64,000 bases of DNA from Limimaricola pyoseonensis (GTDB lineage Bacteria; Pseudomonadota; Alphaproteobacteria; Rhodobacterales; Rhodobacteraceae), in contig NZ_FNAT01000012.1 of NCBI RefSeq assembly GCF_900102015.1, positions 1-64,000 on the forward strand. Direction: 5' to 3'. Shown piece after piece: positions 722 to 18,439 of the stretch (position 1 is its first letter; each line of letters opens with the position of its first letter). Under the pieces are notes generated by a model. It was not told the DNA's origin, searched no databases, and saw nothing but the letters and a program-made list of their open reading frames with translations. Both the position numbers and the translations under genes were made by a program.

Positions 722-737
722 GGTTACTCCAGTAACC
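722..737. terminator. Hairpin between convergent genes
   Basis: Perfect 7-bp stem GGTTACT/AGTAACC with a CC loop. It overlaps the recombinase stop codon and follows the epimerase stop by 22 bp. There is no T-run on either side, so its role as a bidirectional terminator is inferred from position only. Confidence 0.4.
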
Positions 738-1608
738 CCGCCTGCCGCGCCCGCTCCAGCAGGTGTGCGACCGACGAGATCGCCCATTTCGAACGCCCCC
801 TCGGCGTCGGCTCGCGCATCGCCTCGAGCCGCGCCGCGATCTCCCTCAGGGACATGTCGGGCGCCGCGCGCCTGATGCCGGCGACGATCGCCAGGAGCCG
901 GTCGTCGCGCGGCGCCCGCGGCGCGCGGTCGAGCGCCGAAGCCTCCAGCAGCCCGTCCTTCACGAAGCGCGCGCTGGCGCGGCGCAGCCGCTCGACGGTC
1001 CAGGGCGCCGCCTCGGGGTGCCGGCTGTTGACGATCCGCACCACGTCCTCCCAGGGCAGGCGCGGCCGGAACTGCCGCACCGCGGGCAGCCAGTGCCGCG
1101 CCTCGTCGTTGAGCTTGTCGAAATAGCCGCGGTCGCGCGCGCGGCTGACCTTGGCGATGGCCGCCGGATCGCGGGCGCGCAGGCCCGGATTGCCGCCGAC
1201 GCGGCCCTCCCTGCGCGCCGAGGCGAGCCCCGCCAGCGTCCGCTCGCGGATCAGCGCGCGCTCGAACTCCGCCGTGGCGCCGAGGATCTGCAGCGTGAAC
1301 TTGCCCTGCGGCGAGGTGGTGTCGATCGGGTCGCCGAGCGAGCGGAAATGCGCGTCCCTCGCCTCGAGCGTCTCGATCACCTCCAGAAGATGCGACAGCG
1401 AGCGCGCCAGCCGGTCGATCCGCACCGTGACCAGCACGTCGCCGGGGCGGATGCCGGCCACGAGCCGCGCCAGCACCGGCCGGGCGCGCCGGGCGCCCGA
1501 GGCGAACTCCTCGTGGATCTCGGCGCAGCCGGCGGCCTCGAGCGCGCGGCGCTGCGCGGCGGTGTCCTGGCTCTCGGTCGAGACGCGGGCATAGCCGATC
1601 AGGCGCAT
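724..1608 (-). CDS. Serine recombinase (resolvase/invertase family)
   Basis: 294 residues. The N-terminal resolvase catalytic domain (about residues 1-140) begins MRLIGYARVSTESQDTAAQR, with the nucleophilic Ser in RVST. It continues with the arginine-rich active-site segment RIDRLARSLSHL and the E-helix region GATAEFERALIRERT. About 150 residues follow, longer than the short HTH tail of Tn3-type resolvases and without a recognised domain; this part probably carries DNA binding. The family cuts and rejoins DNA at paired sites, so resolution of plasmid multimers or site-specific inversion is likely. It converges on the epimerase gene. The start at 1608 is the only in-frame ATG close to the catalytic motif. 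Confidence 0.88.
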   Translation of the reverse strand: MRLIGYARVSTESQDTAAQRRALEAAGCAEIHEEFASGARRARPVLARLVAGIRPGDVLVTVRIDRLARSLSHLLEVIETLEARDAHFRSLGDPIDTTSPQGKFTLQILGATAEFERALIRERTLAGLASARREGRVGGNPGLRARDPAAIAKVSRARDRGYFDKLNDEARHWLPAVRQFRPRLPWEDVVRIVNSRHPEAAPWTVERLRRASARFVKDGLLEASALDRAPRAPRDDRLLAIVAGIRRAAPDMSLREIAARLEAMREPTPRGRSKWAISSVAHLLERARQAGLLE

Positions 1609-1645
1609 GGGTGGTGTCCAATACAGTCAGACGCGAGGATACGAC

Positions 1646-1657
1646 CGTTTGCAAACG
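1646..1657. promoter_or_regulatory. 12-bp palindrome upstream of the recombinase gene
   Basis: Perfect palindrome CGTTTGCAAACG, 38 bp upstream of the recombinase start, in the divergent gap between the recombinase and the DUF1612/HTH-type gene. Candidate operator or recombinase contact site; the function is inferred from position. Confidence 0.35.
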
Positions 1658-1836
1658 CCGGCAATCGCATGGAGACGCCCTGCGCCGTGCCGCCACCGGG
1701 CGGGCATCGCCTTGCCGGCAAGGGCGCGGGGGTGATGAGCGCGGGCCCGCGGCCACCGGTGCGGGGCGGAGAGGTCTGGACGATCATGGCGGCGCGGCCT
1801 GCCGGTTCTGACCGGGCGGCGAAAGATCGGGCTGGA

Positions 1837-1860
1837 TGAAGCGAAACCACGTTCGCTTCA
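1837..1860. promoter_or_regulatory. Inverted repeat upstream of the DUF1612/HTH-type gene
   Basis: Perfect 9-bp arms TGAAGCGAA (1837-1845) and TTCGCTTCA (1852-1860) around a 6-bp spacer. It lies 45 bp ahead of the chosen start at 1905. The stretch GCGAAACCACG (1841-1851) is the exact reverse complement of CGTGGTTTCGC in the repA iteron region (15291-15301). This suggests an operator, possibly shared with the replication control system. Confidence 0.5.
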
Positions 1861-1904
1861 CCTCGGCGCTGCATCCCCCTGCAAAACCGTGTAGGCCGCA
1901 TGTC

Positions 1905-3032
1905 ATGCCTCATGCCCCCGATCCGTCCCGCACCACCGCCCAGATGCTGCTGCGCGCCGAGGTGCTCGCCGCCCGGCTCGAGGCCACGGCGCGGGCCGAG
2001 CCGGAGCTGGGCCAGCTCTGGCGCGCCGAGCTGGCGCTGTCGGAGGCGGTGGCCAGCGCCGGGCTCGAGGGCGTCCGGGTCTCTGAGGCGCATCTGCTGC
2101 CGCGCGTCGCGTCGAATGGCGGGCAGGCGCCCGAGCCCGGCGGCGCGGAGCTGGCGCTCGGCCTGATGCGGGCGCTGAAGGCGCCGGGCGACCCGCTGGC
2201 CGAGCCGGTGGCGGTGCTGCGCCGCTTCGAGCGGCTCGCCGGCTCGGCCCCGGACCCGGAGGCCGAGCGCCCGGACGACGCCGCGCTCGCCGCCCTCTTC
2301 GAGGGCCTGCGCCCCGGCGACATGCCGATCCTGGGCGCGGCGAGGGTGGCGGCGGGCTATGGCCGGCTGACCCGCCGCGCGAGCCCCGCGGTCGAGCGGC
2401 TGCTGTTCATGGCGGTCGAAGGCCGTCTGCGCGGCACCCCCGGCGGTCCGGCCCCCGGGGCCGACCCGCTGCGCGGCCTCTCGGGCCGCGTCGACGCCGG
2501 CTGGATCTGCCCGCCGGCGCTGGCGCTGAGCCACCGCCGCTTTCGCCCCTGGTCGCCGGGCGGCGCCGCGGGCCTTACCGCCCTGGCCGAGGGGCTGAAC
2601 GGCGTGCTCGAGGCCGAGACCGGGCGCATCGCGCTGTCGCGCGACTGGCTGCGGCGCGGGCTGGCGCTGGCCGGGACGCGGCGGCGCAGCACGCGGATGG
2701 CCGACGCCCTGCGCGCCTTCGCCCGCAGCCCGGTGCTGAGCTCGGGGCTTCTGGCCGAGGCGATCGGCGTGTCGCGGCGCGGCGCGCTGAACCTGATCGA
2801 GACGCTGGAGGCCGAGGGCCTGCTGCGCGAGATCACCCACCGCCGCAGCGCCCGGATCTGGGCCGTGCCGGGCATCGGCGCGCGGCTGGCCGCCCGGCCG
2901 GGACAGGACGCTTTCGCGCGGATGCGGCGGGCGGAGTCGGATGGGTATGCGGCGGAACTGGAGCGGAGCTTCGCCGATCTCGACAGGGCGCTGGCCCGGG
3001 CCGACCGCTGGTCGGGGTCGCCGGAGGCCTGA
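1905..3032 (+). CDS. DUF1612/helix-turn-helix protein (RHE_PE00001-like)
   Basis: 375 residues, Ala/Arg/Leu-rich. The overall pattern resembles the RHE_PE00001-like proteins common on rhizobial and rhodobacteral plasmids: an N-terminal helical DUF1612-like region, then a winged helix-turn-helix near residues 272-310 (LSSGLLAEAIGVSRRGALNL, then ETLEAEGLLREITHRRSARIW). Biochemical function is unknown; DNA binding is inferred from the HTH. An in-frame ATG at 1836 would lengthen it by 23 residues, but that start lies across the inverted repeat, so 1905 is preferred. No clear Shine-Dalgarno sequence is visible. It stands alone between the recombinase and the repeat-rich gap. Confidence 0.65.
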   Translation: MPHAPDPSRTTAQMLLRAEVLAARLEATARAEPELGQLWRAELALSEAVASAGLEGVRVSEAHLLPRVASNGGQAPEPGGAELALGLMRALKAPGDPLAEPVAVLRRFERLAGSAPDPEAERPDDAALAALFEGLRPGDMPILGAARVAAGYGRLTRRASPAVERLLFMAVEGRLRGTPGGPAPGADPLRGLSGRVDAGWICPPALALSHRRFRPWSPGGAAGLTALAEGLNGVLEAETGRIALSRDWLRRGLALAGTRRRSTRMADALRAFARSPVLSSGLLAEAIGVSRRGALNLIETLEAEGLLREITHRRSARIWAVPGIGARLAARPGQDAFARMRRAESDGYAAELERSFADLDRALARADRWSGSPEA

Positions 3033-3140
3033 ATGGGTTTGGCGGGCGGGCGGCAGCTCGGGGGACCTGTCACCCGGGTTGAACGGGCGACGGGCGGCCG
3101 GATCAACGGAAATGTGAGCGGCGCGGCCGCCTGGTTATTC

Positions 3141-3166
3141 GTGATCACATCGCTTGTGATCACATC
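3141..3166. repeat. Tandem GTGATCACATC repeat
   Basis: Two 11-bp copies (3141-3151 and 3156-3166) with a 15-bp period; each contains the palindrome TGATCA. They lie about 110 bp after the DUF1612/HTH-type gene. Confidence 0.7.
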
Positions 3167-3228
3167 CGCTGCGGGTCCTTCCCCGGGAAATCGGACAGCC
3201 GCGGGGGGCGCGGAGCGCGAATCTCCAC

Positions 3229-3294
3229 GATTCCTAGCAAAGTCCATAGGTTAGACCGTGAGACTAGGGCAAATGCCTCAGTCTGCTAGGAATC
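3229..3294. repeat. Nested long inverted repeats
   Basis: Outer arms GATTCCTAGCA (3229-3239) and TGCTAGGAATC (3284-3294) are perfect reverse complements. Inside lies a second, imperfect hairpin, AGACTAGGGCA/TGCCTCAGTCT (about 3261-3284, two mismatches, AA loop). The pair could form a branched structure in DNA or RNA. Confidence 0.65.
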
Positions 3295-3307
3295 TTGTCC
3301 GGGTATC

Positions 3308-3355
3308 AGGTCACGAGTGCTGACCTTTCCTCCCAAACCTGTCATAATTGTTGAC
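3308..3355. promoter_or_regulatory. Twin GTCA-N7-TGAC sites
   Basis: AGGTCA-N7-TGACCT (3308-3326) is followed by GTCA-N7-TGAC (3341-3355). Centres are about 31 bp apart, close to three helical turns, so both would face the same side of the DNA. This suits a dimeric repressor pair or subsites of a serine recombinase res site; which applies cannot be told from sequence alone. Confidence 0.5.
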
Positions 3356-3474
3356 CTATATGCGCCACCCCCGCGCGGAACGGGGCCGGGATCGAGAGGG
3401 TATCCGGGCGGTCCTCGCCGGGGTCGATCTGGCGTGCCTGACAGGGCCTATTCCAGTGGGATGTGAAAAGCGGC

Positions 3475-3570
3475 TGATCTAGTGTGATCTAGTGGCCTAA
3501 ATTCACTCACTCGCTCAGATAAAGCATTGACCATAAAAGAGAAAATGGCTGCTGATCTAGTGATCTAGTG
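3475..3570. repeat. Two clusters of TGATCTAGTG repeats
   Basis: TGATCTAGTG occurs in tandem at 3475-3484 and 3485-3494. A fused pair (TGATCTAG twice, then TG) lies at 3553-3570. About 60 bp of AT-rich sequence separates the clusters. Short tandem copies beside AT-rich DNA resemble iterons, but no replicase gene is adjacent. Confidence 0.65.
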
Positions 3571-3799
3571 AACTAACCGATGGAGGACTTGAGGAAAAAG
3601 ATGATAAGGTAGTTCAATGACTAAACTACACGAGCATCCTCCCAGACGGCTAGACAATAGGCGATTTCACTCAATCACCCGATCAGCGAGGGCGTAAGCC
3701 CCGGTAAGTATTGGGATTTCTTCCTGATCCACTGAATCCGGGGCCACTCGACCGGCAGCGCCGTTCGGTGTGCAGCGAGCCGTTTTTCACCACGATCCG

Positions 3800-3814
3800 T
3801 CACATTGCATGTGA
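3800..3814. repeat. 15-bp palindrome before the iteron-like array
   Basis: TCACAT-TGC-ATGTGA, a perfect palindrome with a 3-bp centre, immediately left of the array at 3816-3950. Its TGTGA half also occurs in the array units. Confidence 0.55.
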
Positions 3815-3815
3815 A

Positions 3816-3950
3816 GTTTCAACCTGCGTTGGAGTTTTCAACATGCGTGTGACTCCATTTCGTACCGCGAACGGCCTCAACTCCCGTGTGAAACAACGTC
3901 ACACGCACGTTGAAACCTTCGTAAGTCGGCTTCACACGAGAGTTGAAAAC
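3816..3950. repeat. Array of five about 18-bp repeats, three forward and two inverted
   Basis: Consensus TTTCAAC-N-TGCGTGTGA. Forward copies: 3816-3833, 3834-3852 and 3875-3893. Reverse copies: 3899-3917 and 3931-3950. Copies 1 and 2 abut, and copies 3 and 4 face each other (CGTGTGA...TCACACG). The variation is in the middle of the unit, as expected for a protein-binding array. No gene overlaps convincingly. Candidate accessory origin, partition or operator array. Confidence 0.7.
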
Positions 3951-3965
3951 GTGGGCTCACGAGCC

Positions 3966-3993
3966 AAAAAAAAACGGCCCCCGAAGGAGCCGT
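3966..3993 (-). terminator. Rho-independent terminator of the rml operon
   Basis: On the minus strand an 8-bp stem ACGGCTCC/GGGGCCGT (one G-T pair) closes a TTCG tetraloop and is followed by nine T residues (plus-strand A tract 3966-3974). It lies about 115 bp after the rmlA stop, in the right direction to end the rmlCBDA transcript. Confidence 0.9.
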
Positions 3994-4109
3994 TTTCGTC
4001 GTCAGTCGAGCATATCGTCGAGGTCATCTGGCGGGTCCGCTTCGACCTATCACGGCACACCTGACCGCATCCGAAGACCGGCGGTGGGCCGAAACGACCC
4101 GCTCCCCGC

Positions 4110-4979
4110 TCAAAGCCCCCTCAGATACGCCCCGTAGCCGTTCTTCCCGAACACCTCCGCCCGCGCCATCAGGCTCTCGCGGTCGATCCAGCCCAAGCTG
4201 TAGGCGATCTCGTCCGGGCTGCCGGTCTGCAGACCCTGCCGCTTCTCGAGCGTGCGCACGAAGTTGCCGGCATCCAGAAGCGAGCCATGCGTGCCAGTGT
4301 CGAGCCAGGCGTAGCCGCGGCCCATGGTCTCGACCCTGAGCAGGCCCTGGTCGAGATAGCTCTCGAGCAGCGTGGTGATCTCCAGCTCGCCGCGTGCCGA
4401 AGGCTTCACCGCGCGGGCGCGCTCGGGGGCGGAGGCGTCGAGGAAGTAGAGGCCGGTCACGGCGTAGTTCGACGGCGGGACCTCGGGCTTCTCGATGATC
4501 GCCTTCGCCCGGCCCTCGGCGTCGAAATCGACCACGCCGTACCGCTCGGGGTCGGCGACGTGGTAGCCGAAGACCGTGCCGCCCTCGGTCCGCGCATCGG
4601 CCGCCGCCAGCATCTCGGGCAACCCGTGGCCGAAGAAGATGTTGTCGCCCAGCACCATCGCCGAGGGGCTGCCTGCGAGGAAGTCCTCGGCCAGGATGTA
4701 GGCCTGCGCGAGGCCGTCCGGGCTCGGCTGCTCGATATAGGTGAGCGAGATGCCCCACTGGCTGCCGTCGCCCATGAGGCGGCGGAACTGGTCCTGGTCC
4801 TCGGGCGTGGTGATCACCGCGATCTCGCGGATGCCGGCCAGCATCAGCGCCGAGAGCGGGTAGTAGATCATCGGCTTGTCGTAGACCGGCAGCAGCTGCT
4901 TCGAGACGCCCATGGTGATCGGGTAGAGCCGGGTGCCGGAGCCCCCGGCGAGGATGATGCCCTTGCGGCCTGCGGTCAT
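4110..4979 (-). CDS. rmlA: Glucose-1-phosphate thymidylyltransferase
   Basis: 289 residues, the usual RmlA length. It makes dTDP-glucose from dTTP and glucose-1-phosphate, the first step to dTDP-L-rhamnose. The nucleotidyltransferase signature [11 protein letters not shown] is at residues 11-21, followed by [25 protein letters not shown] and the sugar-binding segment [18 protein letters not shown]. It is the last gene of rmlCBDA. Its ATG overlaps the rmlD stop by 4 bp (ATGA), which suggests translational coupling, and a strong terminator lies downstream. Cytoplasmic. Confidence 0.97.
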
Positions 4980-7763: not shown

Positions 7764-10700
7764 ATGACCGCGGGGCCTGACATGCCGTACGCCGCCATCG
7801 GCCCGCCCGCGACGGTCCGGCTCGTCTCCTGCCTCGGCGTCGAGCTCGACCTCGAGATGCTGCCGCATTTCCTGCGCCACTACGCGGAGATCGGCATCGC
7901 CCCCGAAGCCATGCATTTCTCGCTGCATGCCGAGACGGCGCAGTCGCCGCGGCTGGCCGAGGCCGAGCGGATCCTCGCGGAGTTCGGCGCCGCGGAGCCC
8001 GCGCGCTGGATCGACACCTATACCAGCGACGCGATGTGGGAGGAGCGGCGCCGCCTGCAGCGCGCCGTCGCCGCGCCGGGCGACTGGATCGTCAATTCCG
8101 ACATCGACGAGCACTACCTCTTCCCGGCGCCGCTGGCCGAGGTGATCGCGCATTGCGACAAGGTCGGCGCCAACTGCGTGCAGGGCGTGCAGATCGACCG
8201 CTTCGCCCCGGAGGGCGCGCTCGCCGCCGTCGCGCCCGAGCCCGCGCTGGCCGAGCAGTTCCCGGTCTCGGGCGAGGCCTCCTTCCACGTCTTCCGGGCC
8301 GGCAAGCATTACGGCATCTCTGGCACGACCAAGCTGATGCTGCACCGCGCCGAGGTGCTGCCGCGCCGCGGCGGCCACAACCCCGAGGGCCTCACCGCCA
8401 ATTCGCGCCAGGCCGAAAGCGACGGCCCGCGCTTCCTGCTCGGCCGGCCGCTGCACACGCTGCCGCGGCTCGCCGACCCGGCCTTCCGCTTCGCCTTCCC
8501 GTTCCAGAGCCTGCATTTCAAGTGGACCGCCAGCCGGCTGCCCACCGTCGCGCGGCGGGTCGAGACACCGGGCTCGAGCCCGGCCGAGGCCGAGAACGGC
8601 GAAAAGGTCCAGGCCTACCTGACCGAGCATGGCCGGATGCCGCTCGACAAGGTCGTGCTGCGCGGGGCCAAGGCCCCCGACACGGCCGGCTGGCGCGACA
8701 CCATGCGGGACTTCCGCGAGAAGACCGCGCCGGCGGAGGCCGCCCCGGCCGAGAGCGCGCCCGACCCGGCGCCGCTGCTCCTCTCCTGCATCGGCGTCGA
8801 CGGCCCCTGCGACGGCGACCTGCCGCTGCTGCGGCACTGGCTCGACCACTACGCAAAGCTCGGCATCCCCGCCGCGCGGGTCCATGTCATCCTCAACGCC
8901 GAAATCGCGGGCAGCCCGAACCTCGCCCGCGCCCGCGCGACCCTCGCCGCGGCCGGCTGCGCCGCGCCCGAGCTCTGGATCGGCCCCTATACCAGCGGCG
9001 AGATGTGGCGGCGCCGGCGGGCGCTGCAACGGCTGGTCGCCGGGCCGCAGGACTGGATCGTCAACGCCGACGCAGACGAGTTCCACGACTACCCCGCGCC
9101 GCTGGCGGAGGTGATCGCGCTCTGCACCGAGAGAGGCGCGCGCCACGTGCAGGGCCCGTTCGTCGACCGCGTGGCCGGGGACGGCACGCTGCGGGCCGTC
9201 GCGCCCGACACCCCCCTGCAGGAGCAGTTCCCGCGCGCCGTGGAGGCCGGGCTCTCGATCGGCAAGCGCCCGGGCGTCGACGACGCCACCGGCACCGTCA
9301 AGCTGATGCTGCACCGCGCCGACATCCTGCCCTCGCTCGGCGGGCACGCGGCCGAGGGCGCGCCGCCGGAAACCGGTCTCTACGGCCTGCCGCTGATGCG
9401 CTTCCCGCGGATCAAGTCGCCCGGCTGGCGCGCCTCGCTGCCGTTCCGGGTGCATCACTTCAAGTGGACCGCCGGGCTGAAGGCACGGCTCGAGGCGCGC
9501 CGCGCCGCGCCGGGGGCGAGCCCGGCGGGCTCGCTCTATGGCGGCCGGATCATCGAGGGGCTCGCACGCGGCGACGGCCGCCTGCCGCTCGACGCCATCG
9601 CCCCCGCGCCCGAGCGGGACGCCGCGCAGGACTGGCGCCCCCGCATCGACGAGCTCGCCCGGCTCGGCGAGACCCTGCGCCCCGCCCGCGCGCGCGCCGG
9701 CCGGCTGCGCGCCGCGCGCGGGAGCCTTGCCGCGCACACGGCCCAAGGCTGGCGGGTGCGGCAGCTCACCTTCGGCAGCGGCGCCGGCCGCTTCCACGCC
9801 CACAGCTACTACGACATCCCCGTCCTGACCCGCGACGCGCGCCGCGTCGCGGCCCACCGCATGGGGTTCGAGGGGCGCTGGATGACGCCCGACGACCCGG
9901 TCGAGATCGGCCTCGTCGACGTCGAGCGCGGCGGCTTCGCGCCGATCGGCACCAGCCGCGCCTGGAGCTGGCAGCAGGGGCCGATGGCGCAGTGGCTGCC
10001 CGATGACCGCCACCTCGTCTGGAACGACCGCCAGCGCGACGGCGCCACGCCGGCGCCCGAAGGCGACGCCTTCGTCGCGCGGCTGCACGACACCGGGACC
10101 GGCACCACCCGCACCCTGCCCCGGCCGGTCTACGCGCTCACCCCCTCGGGGACGGGCGCGCTGTCGCTCAACATGGCGCGGCTCGACCATGCCCGGCCCG
10201 GCTACGGCTACACCGGCGGGCGCGGCGCGAAGATCGGCAGCAACGCCTGCGCCGATGACGGGGTCTGGTACATGGATCTCGCCGAGGGCGGCGCGCCGCC
10301 CCGGCTGGTGCTGTCGCTGGCGCGCGCCGCGGAATTCCTGGCCGAGCGGCTGCCCGAGCCCGAGCGCGCGGCGCATCGCGCCGGCCGGCACGCCTACTGG
10401 TTCAACCACGCCAAGGTCTCGCCCGACGGGCGGCGCTTCACCGTCAAGCTGCGCTGGCGCGGCGCGGGCTTCGAAGGCGGCTGGACCGGCCTGCAGGGGG
10501 TGAGCCTGACCTGCGGGCTCGACGGCGAAGACCTCGCGCTGGTGGCGCGCGGCACCAGCCACGTGATGTGGCACGACGCCGAGCGGCTCTATTTCTGGCA
10601 CCAGGCCGAAAACGCCTTCGTGACAATGCGCGACGCCGTGCCCGAGGCCGAGGACCGCGAAGAGCCCTTCCCGGACCTCATCACCGGCAACGTCCATATC

Positions 10701-13315: not shown

Positions 13316-14176
13316 TCAGGCCGGGCCCGGCCCCTCCGCGTCGAGCGCGGCGCGCATGTCGTCGAGCCGCGCCAGGTCCGCCGCCGCGAATTCCCCCTGC
13401 CGGAACCGCTCGAGGATCCAGCAGGTGTCGATCACATGGCCCGGCAGCGCGTCCGAGCGCAGCATCTCCCGCAGGCCCGAGCGGTGGCGGTGCAGCCCGC
13501 CCGAGACGAAGGCGTCGATCCCGGCCTCGGCCTGCGCGTCCGGCCGCAGCATCGGCAGGCCCAGCCCGTCCCGCAGATGCGCCACCTGCCCGCGCCAGTC
13601 GCGCATCAGCCCCTCGTAGCTCGTGAAGGCGCGCGGGCTCCCGCGCGTCGCGGCCTCCGCCTCCAGCACGTGGCGCATCCAGATCCGCAGCCCCGCCTCG
13701 AGCGGGATGCCGTCGCGCCCCAGCAGCGACTGCGCCACCTCGAGCGGGTCGCGGCAGGTGTGCACATAGGCCACCGGGTACCCCGCCGCCCCGAGCGCCC
13801 CGGCCCAGAAGCGCGTGAGCAGGCAGATCCGCGGATCCTTGAGGACGGGGCGCGCGGCGCCTGCGAACTCCTGCCCGAGGGTCTCGGCGGCGAGCCGCGC
13901 GAACTCCGAGCGCGCGAGCCGGTCGAGAGCGCGCCGGTCGATCGCCTCGAGCCCGCGCCAGTCGGTGCCGAGCGACGCCAGGATGCGGTCGTTCAGCCGC
14001 ATCACATGGGTGGATTCGAAATACCCCTTCGGGTTGGCCTGCGTGTCGGGCATCAGCGTGCGCGGCAGGTCGCAGCCCAGCTTCGCGAGGATCCCCGCCA
14101 GCAGCGAGGTGCCGGACCGGTGCGGGCCGAGCACGACGATCGCGGTCCTGCCCTCGCCCGGCCCCGCCGGGCTCAC
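13316..14176 (-). CDS. Sulfotransferase family protein
   Basis: 286 residues. The N-terminal GPHRSGTSLLAGIL is the 5'-phosphosulfate-binding loop for PAPS. The segments VLKDPRICLLTRFW and VHTCRDPLEVAQSLL fit the core and the 3'-phosphate-binding part of the Sulfotransfer_3-like family. Probable role: O-sulfation of the polysaccharide or a lipid precursor. Its GTG start overlaps the repA stop (GTGA), so it may be translated from the repA transcript, an unusual link between replication control and a modification gene. It converges on the fusion gene ending at 13279. Confidence 0.82.
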   Translation of the reverse strand: MSPAGPGEGRTAIVVLGPHRSGTSLLAGILAKLGCDLPRTLMPDTQANPKGYFESTHVMRLNDRILASLGTDWRGLEAIDRRALDRLARSEFARLAAETLGQEFAGAARPVLKDPRICLLTRFWAGALGAAGYPVAYVHTCRDPLEVAQSLLGRDGIPLEAGLRIWMRHVLEAEAATRGSPRAFTSYEGLMRDWRGQVAHLRDGLGLPMLRPDAQAEAGIDAFVSGGLHRHRSGLREMLRSDALPGHVIDTCWILERFRQGEFAAADLARLDDMRAALDAEGPGPA

Positions 14177-15135
14177 TTCGCCACCCGCCCCTCGAGCCAG
14201 ACCCGGAAGGCCCGCTCCGGCGCCGTCAGCCGCGGCCTGCCGCTGCTGACCCACCAGCCCAGCCATTCCGCCTCGAGCGCGTAGATGTCGTGACCCGGCG
14301 CGATCTCGCGCGCCCGCTCCAGCGCCTCGGGCGGCAGCGGCGAGGGGCCGGGGTCGAGGATGCGCCGCCGGCCAATCCGGATCACGTCGTCGGGCTCCTC
14401 CGAGAGCACGTAGTCCGGCAGGCCGTCGGCCGCGATCATCTTGCGGATCGCGGCGCGGAACACCCGCACCGGGGCGTCCGAGCCCGCCTTCTGGTGCAGC
14501 ATCGCCACGCTCACCCGCCAGTCGCGCTGGCTGCCGCAATGCTTGCGCGCCAGCTCGTAGACCCGCCGCTCCAGCGGCTTCCTGAGGTCGAAATAGGCCG
14601 GGCTCAGCGTCAGCACCGAGCGCGCCAGCACCGCCCGGTAGAGCCATTCCGACAGCGTCACGCTGACCGAGACCATCCGCCCCCCGCGCGAGCGGCGCAC
14701 GATCTCCCAGCTCTCGATCAGCCCGAAGCCGGAGGTGGTCTCGTAATCGCCAGAGACGATGTTGGTGGTGATCCGCGTGCCCGCCAGCCGCTCGAACGCC
14801 TCGCGCAGCCGGGCATAGCCGTCGCCGCTGGTGTCGCGCCGAGTGGCCACCAGCAGGTCGTGCGCCCGCAGCCTGAGCGTGCGGCAGACCTCGCGGCCCG
14901 CGTTCACCGCCGCCACCAGCTGGCTGATGCAGTAGATCAGGATGTCCTTGTCGTGGATCGTCGCCCGGCCCTTGACCGAGGGCGTGACGGTGATCTCCGA
15001 GCCGTTGTGCTCGTAGCGCCGGATCGCCCGGTCGGGCCGGGTCGAGAGCGAGAACATCGGGTGTTCCATCGAGGCGAGGTCATCCTTGAGGCTCGGCTCG
15101 AAGATGTCGCACAGGAAGAACTCGGCCGTGCTCAC
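14173..15135 (-). CDS. repA: Plasmid replication initiator RepA (RPA family)
   Basis: 320 residues. It matches the replication initiator protein A pattern of rhodobacteral plasmids: VSTAEFFLCDIFEPSLKDDL, ASMEHPMFSLSTRPDR, the winged-helix core with RRYEHNGSEITV and KDILIYCISQL, then YFDLRKPLERRVYELARKHCG. It should bind the iterons upstream (15235-15367) and open the AT-rich region. The GTG at 15135 is chosen because it starts the conserved block and has GGAAGG at good spacing; the frame is open to 15237 without further similarity. A 16-codon leader frame overlaps the start. Divergent from parA. Confidence 0.92.
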   Translation of the reverse strand: MSTAEFFLCDIFEPSLKDDLASMEHPMFSLSTRPDRAIRRYEHNGSEITVTPSVKGRATIHDKDILIYCISQLVAAVNAGREVCRTLRLRAHDLLVATRRDTSGDGYARLREAFERLAGTRITTNIVSGDYETTSGFGLIESWEIVRRSRGGRMVSVSVTLSEWLYRAVLARSVLTLSPAYFDLRKPLERRVYELARKHCGSQRDWRVSVAMLHQKAGSDAPVRVFRAAIRKMIAADGLPDYVLSEEPDDVIRIGRRRILDPGPSPLPPEALERAREIAPGHDIYALEAEWLGWWVSSGRPRLTAPERAFRVWLEGRVAK

Positions 15136-15234: not shown

Positions 15235-15367
15235 CAACGGGGTTTCGGTGACGCCACCCTAGGTTTGTCCACAGCCCGCGTCCAGCATGGCGTGGTTTCG
15301 CAACGTGGTTTCAGTGACGCCCATTCGTGGTTCCAGATTCACTTCAACGTGGTTTCAGTGACACCCA
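15235..15367. repeat. RepA iterons, 22-bp phased
   Basis: Consensus CAACGTGGTTTCAGTGACGC. Clear copies at 15235-15256 (one-base variants), 15301-15323 and 15345-15367; weaker ones around 15326-15336 and 15291-15300. The CG[T/G]GG cores at 15238, 15304, 15326 and 15348 are separated by 66, 22 and 22 bp, that is multiples of 22. A degenerate copy near 15259 keeps the register approximately. Confidence 0.85.
15265..15273 (+). promoter_or_regulatory. Near-match DnaA box
   Basis: TTGTCCACA, one mismatch to TTATCCACA, located among the iterons of the replication origin. Confidence 0.5.
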
Positions 15368-15429
15368 CCCCCGAAAAAGCCCTGTTTCCTCGTGCCGGAT
15401 CAACGGCTTGGGCGACGGGCGGGAAGGCG

Positions 15430-18139: not shown

Positions 18140-18140
18140 T

Positions 18141-18155
18141 GTTTCGCTGCGAAAC
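18141..18155. repeat. parS-like palindrome, cluster copy 1
   Basis: GTTTCGCTGCGAAAC flanked by T and A, immediately after the parB stop codon. The centre is T where the other cluster copies have A. Confidence 0.85.
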
Positions 18156-18176
18156 AATCCGCCCGGTCCGCCCGGT

Positions 18177-18191
18177 GTTTCGCAGCGAAAC
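18177..18191. repeat. parS-like palindrome, cluster copy 2
   Basis: GTTTCGCAGCGAAAC flanked by T and A. Confidence 0.85.
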
Positions 18192-18269
18192 ATTTTCGCC
18201 CCGAGGGATCGACGCGGCGATCGAAACCCCGGACGGAACTCCGTTCGGCCTGATGCCGCCGGCGTCACT

Positions 18270-18284
18270 GTTTCGCAGCGAAAC
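18270..18284. repeat. parS-like palindrome, cluster copy 3
   Basis: GTTTCGCAGCGAAAC flanked by T and A, followed by TTTCC. Confidence 0.85.
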
Positions 18285-18350
18285 ATTTCCATCCGCACGG
18301 ATCGGCACCCGGGCCAGCGCCGCGACCGGCACGATGCCGCCGGCGCGGTT

Positions 18351-18365
18351 GTTTCGCAGCGAAAC
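18351..18365. repeat. parS-like palindrome, cluster copy 4
   Basis: GTTTCGCAGCGAAAC flanked by T and A, 75 bp before the next start codon. Confidence 0.85.
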
Positions 18366-18439
18366 ATCGGCGGGGGCCACGCTTGCGTCCGCGGCTCGCG
18401 CCACCTAAGCGGATCCGGGGTCGGGACAGGGAATACGCG

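Follow-up and report, generated by a model that had tools for sequence, protein, structure and literature searches.

Phages of the chi type (Casjensviridae), such as chi (NC_025442), V11 (MH015254) and the Rhodobacter phage RcGingersnap (MW677513), possess genes for primase, terminase, head and tail, together with a cos core and a block of repeats downstream of it. The plasmid analysed here has the cos core and the repeat block in common with these phages, whereas none of these phage genes was recognised on it. The same cos motif occurs in phage satellites, represented by two contigs of the IMG/VR collection (L077 and L083) and by loci in genomes of the bacterial family, which presumably depend on a helper and which we take to be of the PICI or capsid-forming PICI (cfPICI) kind. 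Judging in part by eye, such satellites come with genes for integrase, primase, terminase and capsid-type proteins, whereas the plasmid, a circle of 65 kb, has RepA and ParAB of its own, and it does not present the characters that define PICIs and cfPICIs, i.e., integrase, primase and terminase or regulator genes on a small integrated element. Laboratory cosmids and phagemids combine a plasmid replicon with a phage cos site (and a phage origin); the plasmid differs from them in being natural, 65 kb long and equipped with an rml operon. The phage-plasmid phiTHAF39 (NZ_CP045368) is circular and has a cos site, which is a member of our cos profile R1, but unlike the plasmid it carries annotated phage-type genes (helicase, methyltransferases, ssDNA-binding protein, integrase). 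The available text of PMC8494744 describes plasmids of S. aureus that are moved by phages and satellites through generalised transduction and are fitted to capsid size; compared with these, the plasmid studied here has a cos-type site. Judged by the genes tested, the element qualifies neither as a phage nor as a PICI, and it would act in the manner of a cosmid or of a minimal satellite.

The rml biofilm plasmids of roseobacters are switches between motile and sessile life according to the accessible part of PMC9426580, and the corresponding part of PMC5513947 deals with conjugation. The presence of cos or pac sites on an element suggests phage mobilization, although such sites might arise in non-transmissible elements, and the pairing of elements with helpers is hard, the cos/pac motifs often being unknown (PMC11389934, portion available). 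Among the titles listed in our literature search, which had most subscription papers outside its range, none concerned a cos-origin cassette of a phage on a natural plasmid, and the term "natural cosmid" did not occur in the papers listed.

The window, i.e., the whole stretch of 64,000 nucleotides of Limimaricola pyoseonensis that was analysed, belongs to a contig of 65,357 bases (C5), whose two ends share a 74-base overlap and which is therefore taken as a circle of 65,283 bp. On it lie an rml operon and genes for an RPA-type RepA and for ParA- and ParB-like proteins, as expected of a RepA-I rml "biofilm plasmid"; the RepA-I label follows the deposited repA-I annotation of a 68% identical relative, and the plasmid name is that used in the available part of PMC9426580. 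Sequence comparison makes it very probable that positions 3141-3997 stem from a chi-like phage (Casjensviridae) or a close relative and represent its non-coding end region, now residing on this plasmid. We lean towards the fuller statement that a captured phage cos-origin cassette works here as a natural cosmid with a chi-like helper, while for the packaging function as such we consider the chances to be evenly balanced.

Candidate cos site and its relatives

The original prediction described positions 3033-4000 as an unexplained non-coding kilobase that may be a second or cryptic origin, a recombination (res) locus, a transfer origin or a control array. A phage packaging site (cos) was not among these options, and the strongest feature, a 44-bp block at 3173-3216 that reads GGGTCCTTCC, 19 bases, CGGGGGGCGCGGAGC, was missed. 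When 3160-3240 was compared with phages in a search for distant similarity, six records scored weakly (E 0.005 to 8); five of them, from three phages, belong to Casjensviridae: Marinobacter PS6, Ruegeria V11 and Klebsiella YMC16. The matches in these phages fall in DNA without annotated genes. A pattern scan of IMG/VR recovered the block in 23 contigs, of which 14 measure 11-14 kb; the two that were read gene by gene (L077 and L083) are satellite-like, and in them the block either immediately precedes a frame named by eye as the terminase small subunit or lies at its start.

Profile R1 comprises 29 aligned cos sites of phages, satellites and the plasmid pOA307_63, with the window left out. It took in 21 of the 23 IMG/VR sites, L082 and L084 being near duplicates. 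Sixteen further stretches were sorted by eye: 12 were judged to be chance, most of them lacking a GGGTCC box at the expected spacing; of the others, L109 and L114 were retained, L091 had been included before, and L120 was YMC16 again. R1 matched the window at 3167-3222 with 42.2 bits and an E-value of 3.8e-12, which is optimistic because the R1 sites were found either with the window as query (the phage members and pOA307_63) or with a pattern that the window fits (most satellites). It was the sole window match up to E 10. When sites from the family scan were re-read, eight of nine departed from the search pattern yet kept the motif. The Casjensviridae-type core (GGGTCC box, about 17-20 nt, CGGGGG-N-CGC-N-GAGC) is present in the window, and the 17 invariant columns of alignment A1, in which the window is not included, read identically there. 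The upstream box, which we name cosQ-like on an assumed analogy with lambda, has its counterpart GGTTCCTTCC at the right end of RcGingersnap.

The 12-base cohesive end of chi was found by primer extension (PMC4342425, available part), and RcGingersnap is tabulated with a 12-base 5' overhang in the accessible section of PMC8601537. The sequenced ends of both phages align by eye with the cos core; the 12 bases of RcGingersnap were taken from its sequence record, in which the second copy has five bases beyond it. This alignment suggests that terminase would cut at the window cos to leave a 12-nt 5' overhang, and the predicted overhang is identical to that of chi at 10 of 12 positions and to that of RcGingersnap at 9 of 12. 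Sixteen 12-mers in the window reach 10/12 to chi, so that the end match alone is not significant and proves nothing; it is the 44-bp core that carries the case.

The cos match is single in its own genome at E 0.001, and at the same threshold R1 matched none of seven other genomes of the genus, including one with a sister rml plasmid. Of 394 family genomes scanned with R1, 28 contained a match with an E-value of 0.001 or lower. We read the gene context of 17 fetched loci as well as that of G000 and G089, nine genomes with weak matches being left out, and the assigned loci exclude L168 (G142, 24 bits), L173, L174 and L175. TerS/TerL-like genes adjoin 11 of the 17 loci, four have a primase/VapE match alone, and two (G208, G142) have neither. 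A stricter chi-type form of the block was found in ten stretches of the bacterial genome collection; in the seven that could be assigned, it is accompanied by a VapE match within the locus (two), VapE farther on (one), TerS/TerL (one) or a Prim-Pol primase (two), or lies on a plasmid (one).

In L178 (Pararhizobium) and L181 (Microvirga), the cos adjoins a Prim-Pol primase with no terminase match in the loci, and these are possibly minimal satellites in Hyphomicrobiales. In locus L163, on a contig of 62.9 kb (G040:C23), a primase gene is flanked on one side by two cos-like sites that point in opposite directions and are separated by about 770 bases (8687-8744, 25.1 bits; 9456-9513, 31.6 bits).

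Repeats and the origin-like block

Table 1. Positions of the cassette elements and of selected plasmid genes in the window
Feature	Position	Strand	Basis
HTH_13-type gene, other side of the cassette	1836..3032	+	family match
Tandem pair GTGATCACATC, immediately 5' of the cos core	3141..3166	.	count against expectation
cos site	3167..3222	+	profile R1, window not in the model
Conserved upstream box GGGTCCTTCC, cosQ-like	3173..3182	+	alignments A1, A2, A3
Predicted 12-nt cohesive end GGGGCGCGGAGC	3205..3216	+	alignment with chi and RcGingersnap ends
Inverted arms GATTCCTAGCA / TGCTAGGAATC, possible cosB-like (terminase-binding) element	3229..3294	.	repeat search, folding
Twin GTCA-N7-TGAC dyads	3310..3355	.	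count against shuffles
Putative phage-type origin, TGATCTAGTG pairs (3475, 3485; 3553, 3561) round a 58-bp spacer, 41% GC	3475..3570	+	repeat counts
Imperfect palindrome TCACATTGCATGTGA	3800..3814	.	by eye
Second array, five TTTCAACNYNCGTGTGA-like sites (3817+, 3836+, 3875+, 3899-, 3932-)	3817..3948	.	pattern count
Intrinsic terminator	3970..3997	-	terminator prediction
rmlA, plasmid gene at the place where the phage primase gene would stand	4110..4979	-	family match
RepA (RPA family), the plasmid's own replication initiator	14173..15129	-	family match

All the repeat elements that had been pointed out in the segment are present (Table 1), and most of them exceed shuffles. The tandem pair (3141-3151 and 3156-3166) occurs as two copies in the window against 0.01 expected; short repeat arrays of other sequence were seen by eye upstream of cos in V11, chi, RcGingersnap and pOA307_63. 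The 11-bp inverted arms (3229-3239 and 3284-3294) form a DNA hairpin with a z of -3.0, two of 200 shuffles folding equally well, and their position relative to cos points to a possible cosB-like element. The GTCA-N7-TGAC dyad, twinned at 3310-3324 and 3341-3355, is found three times in the window against 0.45 expected, a number reached by two of 100 shuffles. The TGATCTAGTG clusters consist of four exact copies; with one mismatch allowed the window has seven against 1.1 expected, and no shuffle of 100 reaches seven. The 15-bp palindrome is there, but by eye it is imperfect at its centre. The 18-bp array has the five members announced, three exact and two with two mismatches, which stand in both orientations 19-39 bp from start to start and not head to tail; within three mismatches the window has seven such sites against 1.0 expected, again with 0 of 100 shuffles reaching this number.

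In chi, RcGingersnap, V11 and G089, cos is followed by about 0.7-1.2 kb of short repeats and AT-rich sequence, after which comes a primase/VapE gene facing cos, and between the repeats and the primase lies a small HTH gene in chi and a small unknown gene in V11. By eye, a terminator-like hairpin precedes the genes in V11 and RcGingersnap, and the place that corresponds to the window terminator is occupied by such a hairpin in these two phages, pOA307_63, G208 and the Salibaculum contig. The order in the window is cos, TGATCTAGTG pairs round AT-rich DNA, second array, terminator and then the rml operon in place of the primase; no primase/VapE gene faces the block in the plasmid, where rmlA stands instead. 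The GC content is about 77% ahead of the segment and 40-71% inside it from 3100 on, with the minimum at 3500-3599. In seven of eight regions after cos, including the window, the most repeated 8-mer is reached by at most one of 300 shuffles, and for the window by none; the exception is the Salibaculum block, which shows no repeat enrichment (69 of 300 shuffles reach its top 8-mer). The repeat words themselves differ, being GGTTACAA in chi, GTGTTCCA in V11, GAACACCC in G089, CTTGGAAC in G208, CCTCGTGA in pOA307_63 and TGATCTAG in the window. From its position and anatomy, we infer that 3475-3570 may be an origin. The suggestion of a second or cryptic origin came close for this stretch, which has the layout of the repeats ahead of the primase in chi-like phages, but the organising element of the segment is the phage cos.

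Other sources of the segment were considered. Ten translated stretches compared with Pfam and PHROG gave no convincing family (best E 0.013), so that decayed coding DNA was set aside, and an RNA element was rejected as well, with six Rfam matches that were every one under the gathering score. The whole segment has no relative in 295 family genomes or 72,556 plasmid records, and 3173-4000 has no match in E. coli genomes. The GTGATCACATC pair within two mismatches and the exact match of one 18-bp site were each found in three of the 295 genomes, their own genome among them; a GTGATCACATC pair in G125 lies inside an apparent coding frame and was judged to be chance. Three of the four blastn matches at 3380-3434 (L007, L016, L023; the fourth is L006) are by eye in a Lon-protease-like frame, and those at 3965-4000 probably reflect the terminator hairpin.

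Cassettes on other plasmids and competing readings

Similar cassettes occur on two further plasmids. In Octadecabacter antarcticus, the RepABC plasmid pOA307_63 (62,881 bp), which is catalogued as non-mobilizable, shows cos, repeats and a hairpin resembling a terminator, all within a stretch where no genes are annotated; its cos scores 40.7 bits, but as a member of R1. The draft RepA-I rml contig NODE_16 of Alterinioella nitratireducens (G208:C7), which is not a member of R1, scores 39.4 bits; its cassette lies between repA and an rmlC-like gene, a place different from that in the window. The contig has no end overlap, and its 56,415 bp are thus a lower bound of the plasmid size. Its stated coverage (L182) is 1485. 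A panel of 133 phage and satellite proteins (reading frames taken from V11, from portions of chi and PS6 and from four stretches of satellites) gave no match at 1e-6 on pOA307_63, G208:C7 or the window's plasmid, searched as the window and L047. On the latter no terminase, portal, capsid or primase gene was matched by the panel, and by the genes tested it is not a phage-plasmid either. As the repeats differ, and in the two rml plasmids the positions too, the cassettes were probably gained separately rather than inherited from one old insertion. One 24.7-kb stretch of a Phaeobacter RepA-I plasmid (L062) had no match to R1.

A contig of Salibaculum griseiflavum (59,927 bases; L197 7189-12697) combines cos and a non-coding block with two genes, one VapE-like and one of the HTH kind, but has no terminase match, and is perhaps an intermediate state. 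Genes resembling those for bacteriochlorophyll and carotenoids (photosynthesis) were seen by eye on the same contig.

If the cassette works as a natural cosmid, a chi-like phage would infect the cell and its primase/helicase would fire the iteron block, amplifying the plasmid. The cos match suggests that the helper terminase would then cut the plasmid DNA at cos and fill heads with it, and in the next cell the 12-base ends would re-anneal and close the circle. The plasmids of 65.3 and 62.9 kb are larger than the genomes of chi (59.6 kb) and V11 (59.5 kb) and smaller than that of RcGingersnap (68.2 kb). That the core is intact on three plasmids on which no phage gene was matched favours its being in use, although this falls short of proof. 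With slightly less than even confidence, we extend this to the proposal that Rhodobacterales plasmids repeatedly capture the chi-like cos-plus-origin end and become helper-dependent "natural cosmids", plasmid-sized hitchhikers to be replicated and packaged by a phage. The cos site and origin-like block on three plasmids would provide a concrete route, the dedicated cos transduction of a whole plasmid, and R1 reveals additional candidates, which it could help to match with their helpers. If true, this would explain the spread of lifestyle plasmids without a transfer system, of the rml biofilm type and possibly of the photosynthesis type, and plasmids and phage satellites would form one continuum.

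The cassette could instead be an inert relic of a chi-like phage or satellite that recombined with the plasmid and left behind only its non-coding end, with no present function, which we regard as rather unlikely. Reduced states do exist, i.e., the Salibaculum contig and G089, where cos is accompanied by VapE and a few early genes; moreover, the cassette is absent from the genome with the sister plasmid, and no helper was identified. The scans of IMG/VR revealed no near-identical cos, and the iteron pair occurred there in one 4-kb contig without a cos or panel match. The host genome contains prophage-like genes (G000:C15; L187 5669-13875) with portal and protease 34-39% like those of chi and V11; as a helper this resident prophage was rejected, the 19 kb examined having no R1 cos (best 4.6 bits). 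Against a relic speak the 17 invariant columns, which are intact although no phage gene was recognised, and the recurrence of a similar minimal cassette on three plasmids, but recent gene loss could likewise explain the intact core. Improbable in our view is that the copied origin and cos serve as a decoy which titrates the phage initiator and terminase and so protects the host. Cloned phage origins protect the host in the lactococcal Per effect, and the cis elements would be the same as in a natural cosmid, but a RepA/ParAB plasmid is expected to have a low copy number, which makes titration weak.

It appears very improbable that the segment is an element of the plasmid's own (second origin, res, oriT or regulatory array) with an incidental likeness to phages. 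The repeats are real and dense and adjoin a recombinase/HTH gene pair. Two repeat motifs, however, are absent within 3 kb downstream of all seven HTH homologues, three of which adjoin a recombinase match, and a res locus is not supported. An oriT found no support either, the genome having no match to PF03432, the one relaxase family searched, and the cos match (with its optimistic E-value) likewise stands against an element of this kind. Absence of the repeats from close relatives had been named as grounds for dismissing the segment; it was literally observed in the same-genus genome with the sister rml plasmid (G107:C18), where other DNA occupies the place beside rmlA, while cassettes of the same type were found on other plasmids.

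Neighbouring genes and further plasmid repeats

The gene preceding the segment had been called a DUF1612/HTH-type gene; DUF1612 itself gave no match, HTH_13 (PF11972) matched, and the RHE_PE00001 family stayed below the cut-off. The repA gene has repeats of its own, TTTCAGTGACGCC-like and seen by eye, near 15,245-15,370 of the window. After parB, at 18140-18370, four TGTTTCGCNGCGAAACA-like palindromes are parS-like in look (by eye). The pair formed by the serine recombinase and the HTH_13 gene (window 724-3032) was found again in G107:C30 and G048:C8, and G107:C34 has this pair too, with a decayed HTH gene.
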